A stretch of DNA of 64,000 bases from Haloarcula mannanilytica (lineage in GTDB: Archaea; Halobacteriota; Halobacteria; Halobacteriales; Haloarculaceae). The DNA is taken from NCBI RefSeq assembly GCF_005406125.1, contig NZ_BIXZ01000003.1:1-64000 (forward strand). Direction: 5' to 3'. Made by a program: the position numbers and the translations under genes. Positions 8,416-19,707 of the stretch are shown here, in pieces. The notes below the pieces were generated by a model. That model did not search any database. It was not told the origin of the DNA and worked only from the letters and a program-made list of their open reading frames with translations. How positions within the stretch are numbered: position 1 is the first letter of the stretch; each line of letters starts with the position of its first letter.

Positions 8416-9581
8416 CGTGCCTCCGCCGTCGTGAGCACGTGGCCGACAGTGACGGCGTCCGCGACGCCCCCTTCGTTGAGTAACAAGGCTGTCTTGGTCC
8501 CTTCGACCGCGCGGTCACCTGCGGCACCCGTGAGTTGTTCGTAGGCTTCGAGCGCCTGCAAGAGGCCGGTCGCACCGATGGGGTGGCCCCGGGCCTTCAG
8601 TCCGCCGCTCGGACTCAACTGCACGTCCGTCCAGCCGTCCGCTCGCTCCGCCGGTGCCTGGTAGCTCTGATAGCCCGTTCCCTTGGGAGCGAAGCCGGCT
8701 GCTTCCGCGAGCAACGCCTCGCAGACGGTGAAGGCGTCGTGGACTTCCGCAATATCGATGTCCTCGGCGTTGATGCCCGCTTCCTCGTAGGCCGTCTCAG
8801 CGGCGATGCGACCGCCCGCGATGTCCGTCATGTTCCGTTCGGCGACCGCGATGTTGTTCGCGGAGGCCCCGCTGCCCGCAACATGCACCTGCGGCCGGTC
8901 GAGGTCGGCTGCCAGTTCGGCGGTCGTCACGAGGACAGCCGCAGCGCCGTCCCCGACCGGCGCACAGTCGAAGAGCTTCAGCGGCGGGGCGATGAGGTCT
9001 GATTCCATGACCTTCGCCACGTCAATCTCCTTCGGAAACTGGGCCCGAGGGTTGCGAGCGGCGTTGGCGTGGTTCTTCACCGCAATCTCGGCGAGGTCGC
9101 GTTCCGTGGCGTCCGTCTCGTGGAGGTACCGCTGGGCGAGCAGTGCGTACTGGCTGGGTGCGGTGACGCCGGAGCGTTGCTCGATGGGGCGGTCGAACGC
9201 CGCCGACAGCGCGTCCGTCGCGCCGCTGGTGCCCGCGGATGTCATCTTCTCGACGCCGCAGGCGAGCACGGCCTCGTGTTCTCCGTTGCGAACGTCCTTG
9301 ACCGCGTGGCGCAACGCGAGCGCGCCTGCGGCGGCACACCCCTCGACCCGCTCGGCGGGGACGTGACGGAGGCCGGCCCACTCGGCCAACAGCGTCCCGT
9401 ACATGATCTGGTGTTCGTAGCTTTCCGACTGGTTGCCGACGTATACTGCTTCAACGAGGGTGGCTGGGTCGGGCAGTTCGTCGAACGCCTCTGCGAGGGC
9501 GACCGAAAACAGGTCGCGGCCCGGGAGGTCTGTGCGGCCGAGCGGCGAAGCCCCCACCGACGCAATGACTGGTTCTGGCAT
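8412..9581 (-). CDS. Thiolase (acetyl-CoA acetyltransferase family)
   Basis: The 389-residue thiolase-fold enzyme has the nucleophile Cys82 in VEGCAAAGALAL and the catalytic histidine in ARGHPIGATG. The NEAF-type motif appears as VHDAFTVCEALL, as in SCP2-like and archaeal thiolases. The usual second cysteine (CxG) is absent; the equivalent segment reads LLNEGG. It would condense or cleave acyl-CoA units in the cytosol. The 4-base overlap with the Zn-ribbon/OB-fold gene indicates an operon. An acetoacetyl-CoA thiolase role for isoprenoid synthesis and a beta-oxidation role are both possible. Confidence 0.9.
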   Translation of the reverse strand: MPEPVIASVGASPLGRTDLPGRDLFSVALAEAFDELPDPATLVEAVYVGNQSESYEHQIMYGTLLAEWAGLRHVPAERVEGCAAAGALALRHAVKDVRNGEHEAVLACGVEKMTSAGTSGATDALSAAFDRPIEQRSGVTAPSQYALLAQRYLHETDATERDLAEIAVKNHANAARNPRAQFPKEIDVAKVMESDLIAPPLKLFDCAPVGDGAAAVLVTTAELAADLDRPQVHVAGSGASANNIAVAERNMTDIAGGRIAAETAYEEAGINAEDIDIAEVHDAFTVCEALLAEAAGFAPKGTGYQSYQAPAERADGWTDVQLSPSGGLKARGHPIGATGLLQALEAYEQLTGAAGDRAVEGTKTALLLNEGGVADAVTVGHVLTTAEAR

Positions 9582-9867
9582 GTGTACCTACCCTGTCTTG
9601 ACGGTACTTGTTAGGTATTAGCATCCTACAGCTAACTGAGCCCGCGAGACAGAGGACCACTTGCATATCATCACTGGTGTTGCACTCCCCCGGTCTGTGA
9701 TGGAGTTCAATGCTCGTGCCAGCAGACCCGATTACGGCGTTTTCAACGACTACTACTACCGAATCTGAGCTGACAGCTGTCTGAATAACTATAGTGTTAC
9801 CCTCGGCTATATAGCGAACATATAAAATAACTATACGAGGATCCGCGATTTCCAGACCGAACCTCCC

Positions 9868-10653
9868 GTGTCTGACACCGAGACAAGCCAGCCGCGAATC
9901 GAGCAGGCACTCGACATCGTCCAGCGAGAAATCGACTGTATCGAGGCTGAACTGACGGCTCTCAGTCGGTTTCGGACCAAGATCGTCTCTATCGAACCGA
10001 CGGCACGCGCCGCGGGGACCGTCGATACGTCGGCCGGTGGCATGTCGGCACTGAGTTCCCGCCAGCCGAAACCCGATGCCAGCCTGCGTGCCGTCAGAGA
10101 AGCGTATCGGGAGACGGTCATGGCGGTGCCACACTTCGAAGCCGAGTACGATGACTCGCTGGAAGCGAACATGTCGACGGAGTTCGGACCGGAACTGGGG
10201 ACACAGATCGCCACGGGCACACGCCTGACGCCGCAGTTGTACGAGGCACTGCTGAGTGCAAGTGAGGGTGCCCGCGACGAACGCGAGACGCTGCTCCCGG
10301 AACTCGAACGGGAGCGCGAGTCGCTCCAGTCGGTGCGGAACAAACTCGAAGATTGCGAACACCGGGCGGCCGCCCTCGGTTCGAACGCACGCCGGACGAC
10401 TGACCCCGCTCGGCTTGACACCATCGATGACCAGCTCGCCGACATCGAAGCTGCGTGCGAGACGGCGGCAGCGACCCGCCAACGGCAGCTCCACAGCCGG
10501 TCGGCCGCTGCTCTCTCGGGCATCGACGGGACCAGTCTCGTCCGCTATCTCTATGACGAGTGTTCGGTGACGTGTCCGGCACTTGCTGATATCGTCGCCT
10601 GCCTCGACATGATCAGGCGACACCGTCGCCACTGTCTGGTGTCGACGAGCTGA
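9868..10653 (+). CDS. Coiled-coil protein, DUF7260-like
   Basis: A 261-residue soluble protein starting at GTG. It has two heptad-like helical stretches, at about residues 10-45 (RIEQALDIVQREIDCIEAELTALS) and 130-170 (ERETLLPELERERESLQSVRNKLEDCEH), around a central segment, with a Cys-containing C-terminus. I think it belongs to the haloarchaeal family DUF7260, whose function is not known. It stands alone in an AT-rich setting (9582-9867 has several TATA-like elements and no other gene). One of these, CTATACG near 9831-9838, is at leaderless distance. Convergent with the AbrB-PhoU gene. Confidence 0.65.
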   Translation: MSDTETSQPRIEQALDIVQREIDCIEAELTALSRFRTKIVSIEPTARAAGTVDTSAGGMSALSSRQPKPDASLRAVREAYRETVMAVPHFEAEYDDSLEANMSTEFGPELGTQIATGTRLTPQLYEALLSASEGARDERETLLPELERERESLQSVRNKLEDCEHRAAALGSNARRTTDPARLDTIDDQLADIEAACETAAATRQRQLHSRSAAALSGIDGTSLVRYLYDECSVTCPALADIVACLDMIRRHRRHCLVSTS

Positions 10654-10693
10654 GGGAAAGAGTGGTCGACTGTCGTTTCTTCGTTGGCTGCTC

Positions 10694-11698
10694 TCAGGAC
10701 TGTGGCCGCGGTGCGGCTTTCTGGAGCGCGCTTTCGGCGATGTTCCCGCCGTAGTCTGCGGTCCGGGACAGCGAGTCGACAACGAGCCCGAGTACCTGTG
10801 CGCTCTGTGGATCGAACTCCCGGATCTTCCCGTCGACTTCGCGGGCGGTCTCGTCCACATCGGGAATCTGGCTCCGGGCCTCGTTTGCCAGGTCGACGGC
10901 CTCATCGGAGTTTTCGGTCAACAGGGCGTCCATTGCGGTTTCGGGAACGGCGATAGCCTCGGCTTCCAACTGGTCGAGCAGGTCAGCGGTTTCACCGGTG
11001 ATCTCCCCGATCTCCTGGGAGAGGCTGGCGATCTTCGTGGCGTGGTCGGCGATACGCTCTAGCTGGCGGGCGCTGGACTGGAAATCGAACACCGTCTCGC
11101 GTGGGAACCCGATCTCATCGGCCGCCGTCGGATTCCGGAGGACGGTCCGGAACACACGCGAGACCATGTACCAGAGCCGGTCCACGTCATCGTCGCGTTG
11201 CATTACGTCCGCCGCGAGGTCGTCGTTGTCCTCGATGAGCGCCTCGACGGCGTCGGAGAGCATCGTCAATGAGACCAATCGCATGCGCGTAATGGCGTTG
11301 TGGACCGATAGCTCCGAGGAGTCGAGCAGGTCCTGCAGGACGACCCGGTCGGTCGTCTCCTCGATCATCTCCAGGCCGACAAGCCCCTGCGTGGCGTCGC
11401 GGATGATCCGTCGCTGTTCGGCGGTTATCCGAGAGGCTTCGAGCTGGATGATGTCGAAGCCACTGACGTACATCGTCATCACTGCCCGCGTGAGTTCGTG
11501 CCTGTTTTCCAGCCCCTCCACGTCGAGACTCCCCTCCACACGACCGTTGTCGCGCTGTGGAGCGAGCAACAGCAGGTCCCGTTCGGCGTGGAACTCGACG
11601 ACGCTGCCCGCGCTCACGTCGTTTTCTGTCGCCCACTCTTTGGGTAGTGAGACGGTGTATGTCGACCCGCCCGTCACCTGGACCTTGCGTGTCTCCAT
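10694..11698 (-). CDS. AbrB-PhoU fusion regulator of phosphate uptake (copy 1)
   Basis: The 334-residue protein begins with a SpoVT/AbrB swapped-hairpin domain (METRKVQVTGGSTYTVSLPKEWA, residues 1-50). Two PhoU-type helical repeats follow, the second carrying the typical ARQLERIADHATKIASLS segment. PhoU proteins restrain the Pst transporter or its regulators; the AbrB head suggests DNA binding. It is transcribed divergently from pstS and resembles copy 2 at 18646, which ends the pst operon. A TATA-like box (ATTTATATCAT, 11721-11731) and a motif shared with the pstS side lie upstream. It is a good candidate for the phosphate-responsive regulator of this locus, but that is inference. Confidence 0.88.
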   Translation of the reverse strand: METRKVQVTGGSTYTVSLPKEWATENDVSAGSVVEFHAERDLLLLAPQRDNGRVEGSLDVEGLENRHELTRAVMTMYVSGFDIIQLEASRITAEQRRIIRDATQGLVGLEMIEETTDRVVLQDLLDSSELSVHNAITRMRLVSLTMLSDAVEALIEDNDDLAADVMQRDDDVDRLWYMVSRVFRTVLRNPTAADEIGFPRETVFDFQSSARQLERIADHATKIASLSQEIGEITGETADLLDQLEAEAIAVPETAMDALLTENSDEAVDLANEARSQIPDVDETAREVDGKIREFDPQSAQVLGLVVDSLSRTADYGGNIAESALQKAAPRPQS

Positions 11699-12030
11699 GT
11701 GACCGGCACTCGTTCACGGGATGATATAAATCCATTCATATCTATATACTGTATTGGAGTTCTAATATTTGGGGACATATTCGCCGTCTGAGCGACATTT
11801 ATTCGATGATATTCACCGGTGTAGCCGGTTCTGACCGACTAAAACGGCGATATCTGAGTGCCCGTTCATACAATCGGAATTCAGGTACAAGAAGGCTCAA
11901 ATACGGTGAATGAGGTAGTATATTTGCACCTATTTGTGGGTGTTTACCACACTATATCTATATAGTAATATGGCGAACGATATAGGAATCTTAGCAGGTT
12001 ACTTATTAGCCGTCCTGCTGGACTCTGGTG
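11699..12030. promoter_or_regulatory. Divergent promoter region between AbrB-PhoU copy 1 and pstS
   Basis: This 332-bp stretch is far more AT-rich than the genes around it and contains no gene. The leftward TATA-like box is at 11721-11731. Rightward candidates are GATATAG near 11979-11986 and CTTATTA near 12002-12008. The 11-mer ATATCTATATA occurs twice, at 11738-11748 and 11954-11964, each just upstream of a TATA-like box. The second copy lies in a near-perfect palindrome, ACTATATCTATATAGT (11951-11966). This makes it a likely operator region for phosphate control. Confidence 0.55.
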
Positions 12031-13197
12031 ATGGCGCACGATCCAGACGGGCTGTCAGACTTCGTATCGCGGCGGAAATTCATCGCAACGACAGGTGCAA
12101 CCAGTATCGCTGCGATCGCTGGCTGTTCCAGTGGGAGCAGCGACACCGACTCGGACGGTGGCTCCGGCGGCAGCACGGACACTGCGGCGTCGACGGAAAC
12201 GGAAGCGACCGAAATGGAGGAGACCGAAACGGAAGCGACCGAGAGTGGCGGCTCCAGTGACACCAGCGCGCTCGAATCCGGCGGTTCCTCGACGGTGTAC
12301 CCCATCGCCAACACCGCGGCCTCTTACTGGAACGCCAACCGGCCGGCTAGCGACTCCGAGTACTGGCCCCACGGCGAGTACGACATCGACACCGATCAGA
12401 ATCTCGCCGACTACTGGGCGGGCCTGTACGGGTTCGAGGCCGGCGGCGAGGAGGGCCCGCCGTTCCAGTTCACCGTCGGTCTTTCCCACTCCGGGACCGG
12501 CGTCGAGAAGGTCATGAACGGCCAGAACGACATCGGCAACTCCTCCGGGAATGTCGAGGACGAACTCCCGGACCGTGACTCCTATGAGAGCTTCGTCGAC
12601 CACGTCGTCGGCGTCGACGGCCAGCCGCTCGTCGTCTCGCAGGAAATCGCCGACGCCGGCGTCGAGCAGATTACCGGCGACCAGCTCAAGGGCCTCTACA
12701 AGGGCGACATCACCAACTGGAGCGAACTCGGCGGTCCGGACCGCGAGATTCAGGTGCTGGGCCGGGTCAAGGGCTCCGGGACGCGCACCTCCTTCGTCTC
12801 CAACGTCTTCGGCAACCCCGAGGAAGACACCAGCGTCGCCAACCGCTACGGGCAGAACCAGCGCCTCGCACAGGCCATCGCTCAGGCCGACAACGCCATC
12901 AGCTACCTCGCGCTGGCGTTCATCGACACCGACGGGCTGGCCCCCATCGCTCTGGAATGGGAGGGGACGACCTATGCCTACCAGGACGACGAGAACGGCC
13001 TGGACTCCAAGGCGTACCCGCTGTCGCGGGACCTCCACATGTACACGTGGGAAGGCACCTCGAACAAGGAAGCCGCGGTCATCAACATGATCCTGTCAGA
13101 CTTCGGCCAGGACACGTTCGTCGCGCCGAACAACTACTTCAAGCTTAGCGCCCGCCGGCAAGAGGAACAGCGCGCCAAGCTCCCCGACCAAGTGTAA
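12031..13197 (+). CDS. pstS: Phosphate ABC transporter substrate-binding lipoprotein PstS
   Basis: The 388-residue protein has a twin-arginine signal (SRRKF) leading to a lipobox whose Cys32 follows IAG, so it is folded in the cytosol, exported by Tat and lipid-anchored outside. After the cysteine comes a 40-residue acidic linker with TETEA repeats, then the PstS-like periplasmic-binding fold starting GGSSTVYPIANTAASYW. Typical phosphate-site motifs include GSGTRTSF near the middle. Start codons GTG 12028 and ATG 12031 are adjacent; ATG is preferred. It heads pstSCAB-phoU and is followed 58 bases later by pstC. Expression is expected to rise under phosphate limitation. Confidence 0.95.
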   Translation: MAHDPDGLSDFVSRRKFIATTGATSIAAIAGCSSGSSDTDSDGGSGGSTDTAASTETEATEMEETETEATESGGSSDTSALESGGSSTVYPIANTAASYWNANRPASDSEYWPHGEYDIDTDQNLADYWAGLYGFEAGGEEGPPFQFTVGLSHSGTGVEKVMNGQNDIGNSSGNVEDELPDRDSYESFVDHVVGVDGQPLVVSQEIADAGVEQITGDQLKGLYKGDITNWSELGGPDREIQVLGRVKGSGTRTSFVSNVFGNPEEDTSVANRYGQNQRLAQAIAQADNAISYLALAFIDTDGLAPIALEWEGTTYAYQDDENGLDSKAYPLSRDLHMYTWEGTSNKEAAVINMILSDFGQDTFVAPNNYFKLSARRQEEQRAKLPDQV

Positions 13198-13255: not shown

Positions 13256-14377
13256 ATGACAGAGGACATACCTACGACGGAGGGAGAGGCGGTTTCAAGC
13301 GGGGAGAGAGTCGACGGGTCGACGCTCGCCGTCGGCACGATAGCGACGACGCTGGTGGCGACGGTTCTCGTCTTCCTGTTTCGGCCGGCCCTGGCGCTGC
13401 CCATGCTGCTCGCGTTCGTGTTTGTCACGGTGGTCGGCTGGGTGACTTATCAGGCCGAAGTCGCACGCCTGCTCACGCTGGTCGCGACGGTGCTGACAGT
13501 GCTGACGGTCGCGTTCATCACGTTCTTCCTGTTCATGAGCGCACTGCCGGCGTTTCTCGAACACGGGCTCGGCCTCCTCCTGATTCCGGAACAGGGTGGG
13601 GAGCCCCGCTGGTTCTTCTGGCTCGAAACCGTCCTGCCGTCGAATTCGACGTACTGGAACCCACTCAGTGGGGCCTACTCGCTGATTCCGATGATCTGGG
13701 CGACGGTGATCGTTACCCTCATCGCGGGCGCAGTGGCTGGGCCACTCGGTCTGTTCGGCGCGCTGTTCATCGCCGAGGTCGCCAGCGACCGCCTGCGGGA
13801 ACTCATCAAGCCCGGTGTCGAGATCCTGGCCGGTATCCCCTCTATCGTCTACGGGTTCATCGGCTTCCAGGTGCTGAACGGCTTCATCCAGACGAACTTC
13901 CTCGATGACGGAGCGAGCTTTCTCATCGCCGGCGTCGTCGTGGGCGTGATGGCACTGCCGACGGTCGTCTCCGTCGGCGAGGACGCCCTCTCAAGCGTCC
14001 CCCAGTCGATGGGTGACGGCTCCGTCGCCATGGGCGCGACCGAGTGGCAGACGATGAAGAGTATCTCCATCCCGGCGGCGTTCTCGGGCATCTCCGCGGC
14101 CGTTATCCTCGGCCTCGGACGGGCCATCGGCGAAACGATGGCCGTCGCCGCCATCATGGCCTCGGGGACGCAGTTCGCCGACCCGCTGTTCGACATCTTC
14201 GATGCCAACGCGACGCTGACCAGTCTGATTGCGACCCAGTACGGGAGCGCATCCGAGAGCACCGTCGACGTGCTGTTCGTCGCCGGCGTCATGCTGTTCG
14301 TCATCGTCGCCGGGATGAGCATCGTCTCGCAGTACATCGAACGACGCATGCAGCGGAAACTGAAGGGGCAACAATGA
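13256..14377 (+). CDS. pstC: Phosphate ABC transporter permease PstC
   Basis: The 373-residue membrane protein starts at ATG 13256 (MTEDIPTTEGEAV); an upstream in-frame ATG at 13217 adds 13 atypical residues. Two or three N-terminal helices precede the binding-protein-dependent permease domain. The EAA loop, which contacts PstB, is visible as SVPQSMGDGSVAMGATEWQ, and ILGLGRAIGETMAVAAIMA is a PstC/PstA signature. It forms the membrane channel together with PstA. Its stop overlaps the pstA start by 4 bases (ATGA). Confidence 0.95.
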   Translation: MTEDIPTTEGEAVSSGERVDGSTLAVGTIATTLVATVLVFLFRPALALPMLLAFVFVTVVGWVTYQAEVARLLTLVATVLTVLTVAFITFFLFMSALPAFLEHGLGLLLIPEQGGEPRWFFWLETVLPSNSTYWNPLSGAYSLIPMIWATVIVTLIAGAVAGPLGLFGALFIAEVASDRLRELIKPGVEILAGIPSIVYGFIGFQVLNGFIQTNFLDDGASFLIAGVVVGVMALPTVVSVGEDALSSVPQSMGDGSVAMGATEWQTMKSISIPAAFSGISAAVILGLGRAIGETMAVAAIMASGTQFADPLFDIFDANATLTSLIATQYGSASESTVDVLFVAGVMLFVIVAGMSIVSQYIERRMQRKLKGQQ

Positions 14378-17028
14378 GTGACGCCTACGCGACCACGGAC
14401 CGACTCGTCAGTGCGGATTCGAACATCTACGACCGGGCCCTCGATACGGCGATTGCGCTGAGCGTCATCGGCTTCACGCTCGGGCTCGCCACGCTCGTAA
14501 ATCTGGTCCCGCCCGGTGCCAGCGGCAGTGCCCTCACCACTGCCTTCGGGACGCTGCTGGCTATTGTCACTGGGGCGGTCGGCATCACCGGCCTCGCATC
14601 TTACACCAACGTCGTTCCGGTCACCTCACAGCGGGTGCGTGGCATCGGTCTCGGCCTCGTCGTTTCGACAGTCGCGCTGACCGTCCTCGCGGCGGCCCTT
14701 CCGGTGACGATGGCGACGCTGCTGGGAACCGTCTTGCTGGTCGAGGCGCTGGCGGTCACCGTCGCTGGCGTCACCTCCCGGCTCGAAATCGTTGACACGG
14801 AACCGAACATGAGCGCCGGCCTGCTCTCCGGCGTGGCCTTTGGCACTATCGGCCTCGCCATGGGAGCGGCTGTCGGGGGTGCCCTCGCCGGCTTTGGCTC
14901 GCTCCTGTGGCTCGTCGGCGCTATCGTCGCCGGTATCGGGCTGTTTCTGCTGGCGATTCTCCCCCGCGAAGACCTCGGCTCGACGCTCCCGACGGCTCTC
15001 GTCGTCGGCGCGCTCGGGCTGACAATCGTGACCGGGACCATCGGCGTCGGCTGGCAGTGGAGCCCGCAGACGCTCTCCGGTGGCTTCACCGGCGGCGCAG
15101 TCATCCCGGTGTTCCTTCTGGTCGGGACGCTCCTGTCGGCCTGGTCGGCCGCGAAGTGCCGGGCCGGGTTCGGTGCCCGGGGACGCGAATACGGGGCCTT
15201 CCTCGTCATCAACCTCAACGCCTTCCTGATGGTCACTGTGATGGCGACAATCGTCGTGTTCGTGACGGTCAAAGGCGTTGGCTACGCGATCCACGGGTTC
15301 TCAATCGGCGCATTGACCGCGCTGGTCCTGCTGACGCCTGCACTCCTCGCCGCGATCCAGTTCGCCCGGTCGCCCGCGGGCACGAACGACTGGCACACCG
15401 GCGCACGACAGCTGTTCCGCGTGCTCCCGCTGGCGGTTGTCGGCGCGCTCGCCGCGGTGTTTGTGAGCGTGCCCATCACCGGGTCCCCGCTGCGCTACCC
15501 GTTCACCTACACGGTACTCGTCAACCGACAGGAGCAGTCAATCGACACGGCGATCGCGGTGACGCCGGACATGACGATCGGGACGCTCCTGTTGATCGCG
15601 CCGGCACTGTTGCTCGCGGTCACCTTCTTCCGTTCGTTCGGCTCGCTCCGAAAGGTCGGGACGCAGTCCGAGCGGACCGGGTCGATCAGACAGGCCGTTC
15701 CGACCGCGGTGCTCGCGCTCGTCGTTCTCATCGGCCTCTTCCTGCTTCTCGGTCCCGCTCCGTTCGGTCTCCCCCTCGGCGGCACGCTCGGCCTCGCCGC
15801 CGTCGTCGCCGGTGCAGTCGCGGCGGGCGGGCTCGCCGTCTATCCGCTCGTCGGCGTACTCACAAGCGACGGGCCGACATTGGCCGACAGCGCACAGCGC
15901 GAGGCCCCGCTGTTCACGCTGGGGGTGTTCGGCGGACTCGGGCTGTTGCTGACCGCGCTGTTGCTCCAGCCCGTCGCCGGCGTCAATCCGCAGGTCGGCC
16001 CGGTGAACCTCGTGCCGGCGGTGGCGTTAGCGGCCGCCGTTGCCTCACTGGCGCTGGCGACGCTCACGACCGTCGCAAAGCGCTCCAGCGAGGAGACCAT
16101 CACCCGCCGGCTGCTGACCGAGGAGACGCGACTCGGCCTCGTTGGCGCGGCCGGCTTCACCGCGCTGGTAGGCCTGCACGTCGCCGTTACCGGCGTCTCC
16201 TTTACCGTTCTCGGCGTCTCGGTCTCCAACGAGGGGAGCCTCTCGTGGCCGATGGTGATGCAGGCCTACATCCCGCTGGGGGCCGAACCCGGTGGGATCA
16301 TGCCTGCCATCATCGGCACGGTGTGGCTGGTCATCGGCGCGACGCTGTTTGCCGTCCCGCTGGGGGTCGGTGCGGCGGTGTTCCTCACCGAGTACGCCGA
16401 GCAGGGTCGGTTCACCGCGGTCGTCGAGATCGCGACGAATGCGCTCTGGAGTACGCCGAGTATCGTCTTCGGCCTGTTCGGGGCGGCCTTCCTGATCCCG
16501 CGGCTGGGCGGCGACGAGTCCCTGCTGGCCGGGATGCTTGTGCTCGGGTTCATGCTCCTGCCGCTGGTGCTCATCACCTCGCGGGAGTCAATCAAGGCTG
16601 TTCCCGACGAGTATCGGGACGCCAGCGCGGCCCTGGGCGTGACCCAGTGGGAGACCATCAAGAGCGTCGTCCTGCCCGCGGCGATGCCGGGGGTCATCAC
16701 CGGCGTCATCCTCGGTGTCGGCCGCATCGCCGGCGAGACTGCCCCGCTCATTCTCGTGCTCGGGTCGACGCTGAACGCGACGGCCGCCGTCAACGTTATC
16801 GACGGGTTCCGCTTCGTCTCGGGGCCACCCTTTATCGCTAACGACGCCTTGCTGACGGCCTCGGCGTCACTGCCGACGCAGGTGTGGGCCGTCATCGCGG
16901 CCGGGGTGTCGGGGTCGCCACAGATGGGGTGGGCGACGGCGTTCATCCTGCTGATGGTCGTTCTGACGTTCTATGCGGTCGGTATCACGGCGCGGACGTA
17001 CTTCCGGAGGAAACTCAACTATGAGTGA
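14374..17028 (+). CDS. pstA: Phosphate ABC transporter permease PstA, with very long N-terminal membrane extension
   Basis: The 884-residue product starts at ATG 14374, overlapping the pstC stop. Only about residues 620-884 form the PstA permease: the EAA loop [17 protein letters not shown], the [17 protein letters not shown] signature and about five or six helices. The first about 620 residues contain roughly 16-17 further hydrophobic segments and no motif I can assign. Ordinary PstA is near 300 residues, and haloarchaeal ones are often enlarged but usually shorter than this. The reading frame is uninterrupted with the local codon bias, so this is one protein rather than a frameshift join. 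The pstB start lies 8 bases inside its end, so translation is coupled. The role of the extension is unknown. Confidence 0.92.
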
Positions 17029-17962
17029 TAGCATCAACACGGAGACGAGCACGGAGACGCAAACGAGCGGCGGTCAGACGGTCGAAACCGCATCGCCGAG
17101 CACCGAGACGACAGCCGGCGAGAGCGACGAGCAGATCCGCGAGGCGTGGCGCCAGTACGACTTCGATGGCGACGCGAAGCTCTCGGTCGAGAATCTGGAT
17201 GTCTGGTACGGCGACGACCACGCGCTGAAAGACGTTTCAATGGAGATCCCCGAAAACAGCGTCACGGCGCTCATCGGTCCGTCGGGCTGTGGCAAGTCGA
17301 CGTATCTCCGGTGTCTGAACCGCATGAACGACCGCATCAAGGCCGCTCGTATCGACGGCTCGGTCGAACTCGAAGGCACCGAGATCTACGACCCCAACGC
17401 CAACCTCGTCGAACTGCGCAAGCGCATCGGGATGGTGTTCCAGTCGCCGAATCCGTTCCCAAAATCCATCCGCGAGAACATCTCGTATGGCCCCCGCAAG
17501 CACGGCGACATCAACAAGGGCCTGCTCGCGCGCCTGTTCGGCCGCGACGATACGGAGAAAGAAGGCGACCTCGTCGAACGCTCGCTGAAACAGGCCGCGC
17601 TGTGGGACGAGGTCAGCGACCGTCTCGGCGACAACGCGCTGGGACTCTCGGGCGGCCAGCAACAGCGGCTCTGCATCGCCCGCTGTCTGGCCGTCGATCC
17701 CGAGGTCATCCTGATGGACGAGCCGGCATCGGCGCTTGACCCCATCGCAACCTCGAAGATCGAAGACCTCGTCGAGGAGCTGTCGGAGAACTACACCGTC
17801 GTCATCGTCACCCACAACATGCAGCAGGCGGCCCGCATCTCGGACCAGACCGCCGTCTTCCTCACCGGCGGCGAACTCGTCGAATACGACGACACGGACA
17901 AGATATTCGAGAACCCCGAGAGTCAACGCGTCGAGGACTACATCACCGGCAAGTTCGGGTGA
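17021..17962 (+). CDS. pstB: Phosphate ABC transporter ATPase PstB
   Basis: The 313-residue ATPase has an acidic, Thr/Ser-rich 55-residue head, then a standard ABC domain: Walker [10 protein letters not shown], the Q-loop [11 protein letters not shown], signature LSGGQQQR, Walker B VILMDEP and the H-loop VTHNMQQAA. The sequence matches PstB in detail, including [10 protein letters not shown] after Walker A. It powers phosphate import through PstC/PstA. A GGAGG sequence at 17006-17010 lies ten bases before the ATG and is one of the clear Shine-Dalgarno sites in this region. The gene overlaps pstA by 8 bases and is followed by phoU after 3 bases. Confidence 0.96.
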
Positions 17963-17965
17963 CCC

Positions 17966-18643
17966 ATGTCGCGCGAGTCGTACCAGCAGCAACTGGACGA
18001 ACTCCGGGCGAACGTGGTCGACATGGGTGAGCTTGTCGTCGAGCGCCTCGAAGCAGCGCTTACAGCCCTCCAAACGGTCGATCTGGAGACGGCACAGTCG
18101 ATCATCGACGGCGACGACGAGATAAACGAGCTGTATCTGGGTCTGGAAGCGGACTGTATCGACCTCTTTGCCCTCCAGCAGCCGGTCGCCACCGACCTCC
18201 GTTTTATCGCTGCCTCGTTCAAGATCATCACCGACCTCGAACGCGTCGGCGACCTCGCGACGAACCTCGCGGCCTACGCGCAGTCGGCCGACCAGCGGCT
18301 CGGCCTCGATATCGATGTCGATACCATCGGCCGGGAAGCCACCGAGATGGTCGAGCGCAGCATCGACGCCTACGAACGGGAAGATATCGAGGCATGCCGC
18401 GCCATCGCGGCCGACGACGACGAACTCGATGCGCTCTGTCAGCGGGCCAGCGAGACCGTCGCCCGTGACCTCATCGAACGGGAGGCCGACAGCGACGACG
18501 GTTGGGGGGTCGAACAGCTTCTCGACGACGTGTCCCGGCTCCTGTTGACGGTTCGGGACCTCGAACGCGTCGGCGACCACGCCGTCAACATCGCGGCACG
18601 CACCCTGTATATGGTCGAAACTGATTCCGAACTCATCTACTAA
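17966..18643 (+). CDS. phoU: Phosphate-specific transport accessory protein PhoU
   Basis: The 225-residue all-helical protein has two PhoU repeats, each with the metal-binding-type motif: DLERVGDLATNLA at about residues 90-102 and DLERVGDHAVNIA at about 195-207. PhoU normally dampens Pst activity when phosphate is plentiful and prevents toxic overaccumulation. It has the usual length (about 220) and the canonical place after pstB, with a gap of 3 bases. A third PhoU-domain gene begins 2 bases after its stop. Confidence 0.95.
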   Translation: MSRESYQQQLDELRANVVDMGELVVERLEAALTALQTVDLETAQSIIDGDDEINELYLGLEADCIDLFALQQPVATDLRFIAASFKIITDLERVGDLATNLAAYAQSADQRLGLDIDVDTIGREATEMVERSIDAYEREDIEACRAIAADDDELDALCQRASETVARDLIEREADSDDGWGVEQLLDDVSRLLLTVRDLERVGDHAVNIAARTLYMVETDSELIY

Positions 18644-18645
18644 GC

Positions 18646-19707
18646 ATGGAAACCCGAAAGATACAGACCGTCGGCGGCGGGACCTACACCGTTTCGCTAC
18701 CGAAAGAGTGGGCCGAGTCGGAAGGCTGTACGGCCGGGACGACGGTCAACCTCCATACGCACATCGACGGCCTGCTAGTGATTCAGACGCCCGAGTCCCA
18801 GACGGGAGCGCGGAACCGCGTCGCGCTCGAAGCCGGGACCGACGACCCGGCCGAGATAGAGCAGTTGCTCCGGGCGGCCTACGCCGCCGGCGTCGAGTCC
18901 GTCGTCCTCGAAGTCCCCGACGGCTACACCGACGACCAACTCCGGGCTATCGAACGCGTCACGCGGAACCTGACCGGCGTGACCGTCGCCGAGGAGACCG
19001 AGACGGCGGTGACGGTCCAGACGCTGCTCGACGCCGGCGAGGTGTCCGTCAGACAGTCGGTCCGCCAGCTCCAGTTCGTCGCGCTATCGATGCACCGGGA
19101 CGCGATGGCCGCGCTCACGGCCGGGACAACCAGCGACCGATGGGGCGACCGCGACGAGCAGGCCGACCGGCTGTATGCCATGATTGATCGCTACTTCGAG
19201 CGCGGCCTGGCACGACTCGACGAGATCGACGCGCTCGGGCTGACGCGCCCCGAACTGTTCAGCCTCTGGGTGACCGCGAACGAACTCGAACGCGTAGCTG
19301 ACCACGCTGAACGCATCGGCACCGTGGCTGACCAACTCGACGGTCAGCCCGCCGGTCCCATCGCCACCGGTCTCAATGACATCGCCGATGAGGTCCGCGC
19401 CGTCGTCGAGGACGCCGTCCGCGTCATCATCGGCGACGCCTGCGTTGCCACCGCCCGGCAGACCCTCGCCAAGCGCCGGGCCGTGCGCCAGCGAATAACT
19501 GACCTCGACCGACAGCTGTTCGAATCCGGTGACGCCGATTACCGGCTCACACGTGCCCTCGATAGCCTTTCTAGAACGGCGGAACACGGCGGCAACATCG
19601 CCGAGTTCGGGCTTCGGATGGCCGTCCGCGACGGTGCGCTCGCCGACTCCAGTACCGGCACCGACGACGCGGACACGTCGGGGTCGGCGGCCGAGACGGA
19701 GTCGTGA
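18646..19707 (+). CDS. AbrB-PhoU fusion regulator of phosphate uptake (copy 2)
   Basis: A 353-residue protein with the same architecture as the gene at 10694: an AbrB-type head (METRKIQTVGGGTYTVSLPKEWA) and two PhoU-like helical repeats, the second with TANELERVADHAERIGTVA. The C-terminal 25 residues are a disordered acidic tail. It is the sixth gene of the pst operon, starting 2 bases after phoU. The first 22 residues of the two fusions are nearly identical, while their PhoU parts differ much more. This suggests they recognise similar DNA but sense or contact different partners. That last point is inference. Confidence 0.88.
   Translation: METRKIQTVGGGTYTVSLPKEWAESEGCTAGTTVNLHTHIDGLLVIQTPESQTGARNRVALEAGTDDPAEIEQLLRAAYAAGVESVVLEVPDGYTDDQLRAIERVTRNLTGVTVAEETETAVTVQTLLDAGEVSVRQSVRQLQFVALSMHRDAMAALTAGTTSDRWGDRDEQADRLYAMIDRYFERGLARLDEIDALGLTRPELFSLWVTANELERVADHAERIGTVADQLDGQPAGPIATGLNDIADEVRAVVEDAVRVIIGDACVATARQTLAKRRAVRQRITDLDRQLFESGDADYRLTRALDSLSRTAEHGGNIAEFGLRMAVRDGALADSSTGTDDADTSGSAAETES

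Follow-up and report, generated by a model that had tools for sequence, protein, structure and literature searches.

The divergent genes for an AbrB-PhoU fusion protein and for a phosphate transport (pst) operon in Haloarcula mannanilytica are separated by a 332-bp intergenic region, in which one 11-letter word occurs twice. The question that this locus raises is whether the repeat marks an operator for phosphate control and, if so, what its functional unit is and which protein reads it.

The window, i.e., the whole 64-kb stretch of DNA that was analysed, has a GC content of 65%, and the intergenic region one of 42%. Leftward lies the AbrB-PhoU gene (10694-11698, minus strand), a candidate regulator gene with a SpoVT/AbrB-MazE type N-terminus and a PhoU domain according to Pfam and to the AlphaFold2 topology; its protein matches those of its nearest named relatives, among them Haloarcula argentinensis, japonica and sebkhae, at 97-98%. 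Rightward lies pstS1 (12031-13197, plus strand), which encodes a phosphate-binding protein (Pfam PBP_like_2, 2.5e-23; NCBIfam TIGR02136, 1.6e-41, below its cut-off). The remaining pst operon (13259-18643, plus strand) encodes the permease(s), the ATPase PstB and PhoU (Pfam BPD_transp_1, ABC_tran and PhoU), with a presumed reading frame for PstA, and is closed by a second, distant AbrB-PhoU homologue (18646-19623, plus strand, 35% identity). Rfam families at gathering scores were absent from 9500-12200, and no tandem repeats were found in 11600-12100.

The repeated word and its conserved unit

The 11-mer ATATCTATATA stands, as the initial annotation had it, at 11738-11748 and 11954-11964 (plus strand) between the divergent genes; these are its only copies in the window, and the whole genome has five. 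The second copy lies within ACTATATCTATATAGT (11951-11966, plus strand), which is indeed a 16-bp palindrome with a single, central mismatched pair. In 2000 dinucleotide-preserving shuffles of the 332-bp region, a direct exact repeat of at least 11 letters appeared 25 times, and 41 times when inverted repeats were included. At about 1-2% of local shuffles, such a repeat is mildly unusual. Palindromes of 16 letters in which no more than one pair is mismatched turned up in 352 of the 2000 shuffles, which means that the palindrome, taken alone, is not notable.

The region was then compared in an alignment of 15 orthologous intergenic regions of the Haloarcula group, the window's own included, where one row without a PstS match at the expected place (L009) and one with a distant PstS match (L014) were both retained. 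Of the 332 columns of the alignment 96 are invariant, and of its 141 central columns (11790-11930) 7. Towards AbrB-PhoU, an unbroken run of 13 columns (11736-11748) is invariant, and so is the TATA stretch at 11725-11734, which contains the TATA box TTTATA of AbrB-PhoU (11725-11730, minus strand; TTTAT has the same spacing in relatives). Towards pstS, 14 of the 15 sequences have an exact CTATATAG and the fifteenth has ATATATAG, so that VTATATAG, usually as CTATATAG, is kept in all 15, while one of the seven columns of the palindrome's left arm is invariant and the second 11-mer copy is intact in five sequences, the window included. Because only the letters VTATATAG are kept on both sides, they are the unit, on the minus strand at left and palindromic at right. 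The left unit is GTATATAG at 11742-11749 (minus strand), overlapped by the first 11-mer copy and ending 11 nt before TTTATA; the right unit is CTATATAG at 11958-11965 (plus strand).

Absence of the motif from orthologous intergenic regions, which the initial annotation had named as grounds for giving up an operator, was looked for in these 15 Haloarcula-group sequences and was not found. It is very likely that the word repeated before the back-to-back phosphate genes is a real control site. The idea of an operator in front of both promoters is thus strongly supported by phylogenetic footprinting, but its unit had been drawn wrongly: the 11-mer is set aside for its extra letters, which vary among relatives, and the 16-bp palindrome for its variable left arm and for the frequency of similar palindromes in shuffles. 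Judged from the sequences alone, the palindrome is probably incidental, since its left arm is not conserved. That the repeat as such is a chance match in AT-rich DNA can draw on the 25 and 352 shuffles mentioned above, but with VTATATAG conserved at a fixed position in relatives this explanation is extremely improbable; chance may still be the source of those additional letters by which, on the pstS side, the box is extended to the 11-mer and the palindrome.

Our reading, to which we assign a probability of roughly 0.7, is that the shared word represents two copies of the haloarchaeal Pho box VTATATAG, with CTATATAG as its palindromic form, and that this box would be read by AbrB-PhoU, be it as an activator or as a repressor.

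Spacing of the boxes in pst promoters

Rather than next to the palindrome, the rightward TATA-like box is better placed at TACTTATT (12000-12007, plus strand), which starts 31 nt before the ATG at 12031, a geometry that is probably leaderless. This weak core has TCTTAGCAGGT just before it, and 12 of the 17 columns of 11992-12008 are invariant. The pstS1 promoter also has a second, degenerate box, CGATATAG (11978-11985, plus strand), which is absent from the list of the initial annotation. This proximal box is poorly conserved in the Haloarcula group, with three of the eight columns of 11979-11986 invariant.

When pstS genes that face AbrB-PhoU are scanned across haloarchaea, a box with at most one mismatch starts 46-90 bp before the start codon in 49 of 51 loci and is exact in 34. 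Both counts are inflated by common ancestry, since related species do not provide independent promoters, and the set of 51 loci shares members with the set of 15 sequences. In the two loci counted as misses (L074 and L086) the start codon is uncertain. Spacings were counted in the 37 of 42 non-redundant promoters that have a recognised core hexamer, i.e., TA[CT]TTA or either of two variants rich in T (L057, L074, L086, L090 and L091 were left out). The 39 NTATATAG words in these promoters all fall on five spacings: 14 nt (15 words), 23 nt (2), 33 nt (16), 34 nt (2) and 43 nt (4) before the core. The vector length of this distribution is 0.98 at a period of 9.5-9.75 bp, which is about one helical turn. 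The majority core in the 34 promoters with TA[CT]TTA is [AC]ATAG[TC]AG[AG]GTA[CT]TTA. The pstS1 promoter of the window fits this ladder, with CTATATAG at 34 nt and the decayed CGATATAG at 14 nt before TACTTA in the core at 12000, and the place at 14 nt is the one that holds 15 boxes in other pst promoters. Box positions jump between rungs in different lineages, an outcome that ancestry alone would not readily give.

To see what such spacing could mean, consider an AbrB-PhoU dimer that would bind each box through its AbrB/MazE-type N-terminus, while the PhoU domain would receive phosphate, or the state of the Pst transporter, as its presumed signal. At pstS, the dimer would meet one or two boxes placed 14, 23, 33/34 or 43 nt ahead of the weak conserved core [AC]ATAGYAGRGTAYTTA, at intervals of roughly a helical turn. 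A weak TATA preceded by boxes on the same side of the helix would suit an activator that contacts the basal machinery under phosphate limitation. At its own gene, the dimer would find a box 11 nt before a strong TATA box, which would give autoregulation; when this distance is measured to the TTAT equivalent to that of the pst core, the box is out of phase with the pst boxes by about half a turn, and the offset may imply a different, perhaps negative, effect.

That AbrB-PhoU activates pst rather than represses it is a proposition to which we give even odds. A variant of our main reading, not exclusive of it, is that AbrB-PhoU binds the box as a phosphate-dependent repressor. The DUF7260 and metallophosphoesterase-ppk1 promoters, where the box is 6 nt from a TATA element, and the AbrB-PhoU promoter, where it is 11 nt before TTTAT, would suit such a role, since bound protein could hinder TFB/TBP there. 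The pst boxes, however, precede a core with a weak TATA and keep in helical phase with it over distances of as much as 43 nt, and passages of PMC6560208 describe pho-boxes as essential for upregulation in Halobacterium salinarum, so that repression appears rather unlikely.

The ladder also bears on the proposal that an alternative TFB/TBP pair uses the box as a basal promoter element, in place of a regulator site. AT-richness and fixed distances to the core are what such an element would have, but the same word is found at 11, 14, 23, 33/34 and 43 nt in different promoters and its ten sites in 4.2 Mb are few, which makes a basal element quite improbable.

The box before AbrB-PhoU genes and its candidate reader

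Upstream regions were taken from the best 80 of 226 AbrB-PhoU relatives, of which 79 were used and one with less than 100 bp upstream was left out. Between -60 and -29, 66 of the 79 loci have a word that differs from CTATATAG at no more than one letter, where 300 letter-permuted control words reach 2.0 of the 79 loci on average, and 78 have one with two mismatches or fewer. The highest-scoring permuted words are TATATAGC with 58 loci, which is the same word shifted by one, and then ATCTATAG with 40, which is two letters away. The box stands most frequently 11 nt ahead of TTTAT. The box precedes AbrB-PhoU in 50 of 51 loci with PstS at two mismatches or fewer (44 at one or fewer), and in 28 of 28 loci without a PstS found within 900 bp (22 at one or fewer). 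Since it is present also where no PstS is found at this distance, the box follows the regulator gene itself. The genome of H. mannanilytica has six AbrB-PhoU homologues, and the box occurs only at the two that face a pstS gene; the 300 bp before the distant homologue at the end of the pst operon (18646-19623) are without a Pho box. Presence of the box with or without pstS, together with its limitation to the two pstS-facing homologues, points to autoregulation.

In the AbrB-PhoU protein, Pfam MazE_antitoxin (PF04014) matches residues 7-51 (6.3e-11; 42.5 bits against a cut-off of 24.7) and Pfam PhoU (PF01895) residues 136-225 (7.8e-22; 77.9 bits against 23.5), while NCBIfam TIGR02135 scores 61 bits, below its cut-off of 130.25. 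The PhoU domain has the PDB relatives 1t72 and 4q25, and its bundle is predicted confidently by AlphaFold2 (mean pLDDT 81.3). The predicted N-terminus has the strand-strand-helix-strand-strand order of SpoVT-AbrB domains at low pLDDT, as would be expected when a swapped dimer is predicted as a monomer. The AbrB segment is almost invariant over 31 diverse proteins, which is what one would expect if its DNA target were also fixed. Regulators of the SpoVT/AbrB-MazE family have a dimeric DNA-binding domain of the swapped-hairpin type, and the same type of domain is predicted at the N-terminus of AbrB-PhoU, where it is joined to a PhoU domain and associated with phosphate genes. An archaeal relative of these regulators by fold, Sso7c4, is described in excerpts of PMC5222340.

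A phosphate operator could also be read by another protein, such as SirR, an Lrp-type regulator or another PhoU homologue. SirR and Lrp have been tied to phosphate transport genes of Halobacterium in portions of PMC1502140 and PMC2894021, the former of which proposes SirR as regulator of a phosphate/transport cluster with a motif computed in 2006, and the genome itself offers six AbrB-PhoU-like genes. Against a different reader stand the tracking of the AbrB-PhoU gene by the box even when no pstS lies beside it and the restriction of the box, among the six homologues, to the two that face pstS. Another reader is thus unlikely, and AbrB-PhoU is retained as the candidate.

Predicted regulon and relation to known phosphate systems

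The genome of 4.2 Mb has 10 sites for CTATATAG and 26 for the reversed control word GATATATC; nine relatives have 5-13 and 17-44 sites, respectively. In each of the ten genomes the reversed control outnumbers CTATATAG about 1.5- to 5.4-fold, as if the latter were avoided outside its sites. Six of the ten CTATATAG sites lie 44-76 bp before a start codon, and five of these six are at conserved positions, four of the five with phosphate-related products. When 15 of the 26 GATATATC sites were examined, one lay 44-76 bp before a plausible start, and no evident phosphate gene was found at the 15, as judged by the N-terminal residues that the longest frame to either side encodes.

The five conserved sites precede pstS1, pstS2, metallophosphoesterase-ppk1, CDP-alcohol phosphatidyltransferase-PHP and DUF7260. 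The pstS2 gene faces the second close AbrB-PhoU, and its box has at most one mismatch in 25 of 29 genus-level homologues (29 of 33 pstS2-type places were scanned). The site at L124, before a calcineurin-like phosphoesterase gene followed by a polyphosphate kinase gene, is kept in 12 of 21 homologues and in all nine with at least 82% identity; a polyphosphate kinase also belongs to the sRNA132 set of H. volcanii in passages of PMC6560208. The site before the CDP-alcohol phosphatidyltransferase gene, which is followed by a PHP protein gene, is kept in seven of seven at one mismatch or fewer. In the window, CTATATAG at 9807-9814 (plus strand), followed by CATATAAAAT, precedes the gene for a DUF7260 protein (9868-10653, plus strand; Pfam DUF7260, 8.9e-65), a predicted regulon member; this box has at most one mismatch in 16 of 18 usable genus homologues (18 of 20, where L210, at a contig edge, and L200, with its gene at a contig edge, were left out). 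The DUF7260 promoter (9807-9866, CTATATAG-N4-CATATAAAAT) closely resembles that of metallophosphoesterase-ppk1 (L124), with the box 6 nt from a TATA element in both, and this likeness suggests a common promoter type within the regulon.

The remaining sites are less clear. One (L125) precedes a UgpB/sugar (glycerol-phosphate)-type ABC protein gene and is doubtful: with the box at one mismatch or fewer in one of eight homologues, and a homologue beside a xylose gene in Halobacterium hubeiense, it is probably not a conserved member. Another doubtful site (L118) lies at a GNAT/DsbA pair and occurs also in one relative (L283); before the GNAT gene in both genomes (L118, 1501-1540, and L283), CTATATAG has after it TCATAGCAAC, which closely resembles the pst core. 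Three sites are without a clear phosphate link (L116, inside an ORF, L117 and L123). In the relatives, two CTATATAG sites per genome, 18 in all, were examined. Among them, two (L287 and L297) lie 27 bp before the gene for a secreted-looking protein, which in L287 has the Pfam matches ABC_transp_aux and OST48_N. The shorter definition RTATATAG was rejected as a genome-wide predictor: its 51 sites, of which 49 were assessed (C24:310 and L239 were left out), include few with a plausible start at promoter distance. It is unspecific by itself, since there are few such starts beyond the two AbrB-PhoU genes, pstS2 and a phosphatase-like gene. The last of these is a 2-phosphosulfolactate-phosphatase-like gene; its start is preceded at 71 bp by GTATATAG in the present genome (L260) and by CTATATAG in one of the relatives (L288).

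Taken together, the proposal is that a single fused AbrB-PhoU acts on VTATATAG boxes, that it activates pst in exact helical register (14/23/33/43 nt before [AC]ATAGYAGRGTAYTTA), that it regulates its own gene from a box some half a turn out of this phase (11 nt ahead of TTTAT), and that its regulon includes DUF7260 and the metallophosphoesterase-polyphosphate kinase and CDP-alcohol phosphatidyltransferase/PHP operons. As a whole, this scheme may just as well fail as hold.

The box does not explain all phosphate control. Eight pstS genes were read for which a facing close AbrB-PhoU is absent or not known; one of them has the box at a usual distance, a Halococcus gene (L301) with CTATATAG at -63 of the annotated start. 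The usual places are without the box in HVO_A0477-type pstS genes on Haloferax plasmids (L298 and L299) and in Halorubrum (L300), where near-matches occur at -122 to -131 only, and in the pstS2-type genes L171, L172, L173 and L187, which lie away from a close AbrB-PhoU and have another common promoter. In L298, L299, L171-L173 and L187 this different shared promoter consists of TATTATAAACG and then a second T-rich element, with no canonical box. HVO_A0477-type pst is phosphate-responsive in Haloferax according to parts of PMC6560208; since its two plasmid relatives are without the box, a second mode of phosphate control probably exists.

How, then, does the box relate to known systems? The bacterial PHO box is a repeated short operator before pstS, with units in helical register, that defines a phosphate regulon; it differs from the present box in sequence and in its reader, PhoB, a two-component response regulator, whereas the candidate reader here is an AbrB-PhoU fusion. 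The phosphate stimulon of H. salinarum, reportedly described by Wende in 2009 (cited in PMC6560208), is said to include a glycerol-3-phosphate transporter. Two pst systems are common to that stimulon and to the present genome; DUF7260, CDP-alcohol phosphatidyltransferase-PHP and the 2-phosphosulfolactate-phosphatase-like gene are added here as predicted members, while the glycerol-3-phosphate transporter finds no support here. Pho-boxes in the pst1 and pst2 promoters of H. salinarum R1 are attributed to Furtwangler et al. (2010, Mol Microbiol 76:378) in passages of PMC6560208 and PMC6267482, the former calling them binding motifs of PhoU regulators that are essential for pst upregulation. From the same two papers a Haloferax PhoU2 with a predicted DNA-binding N-terminus is known. 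The present box likewise occurs in haloarchaeal pst promoters, a comparison made by description and not by sequence; the phased architecture and the wider gene set come from the present analysis. Open-licence papers in which TATATAG is found with haloarchaea (PMC7714787) or CTATATAG with archaea are not evidently about a phosphate box. As far as the literature covered here goes, a consensus shared by many haloarchaea, a ladder of helical spacings before a conserved core and a pst-independent autoregulatory box are new, and so are DUF7260, phosphoesterase-ppk1 and CDP-alcohol transferase-PHP as predicted members.

For the biology of haloarchaea, the box provides a precise, testable operator for phosphate control, with a helical-phasing rule that can be tested with spacers and that separates an activator from a repressor, and it predicts a link to phosphate stress for the uncharacterised DUF7260 family and for a small number of others.
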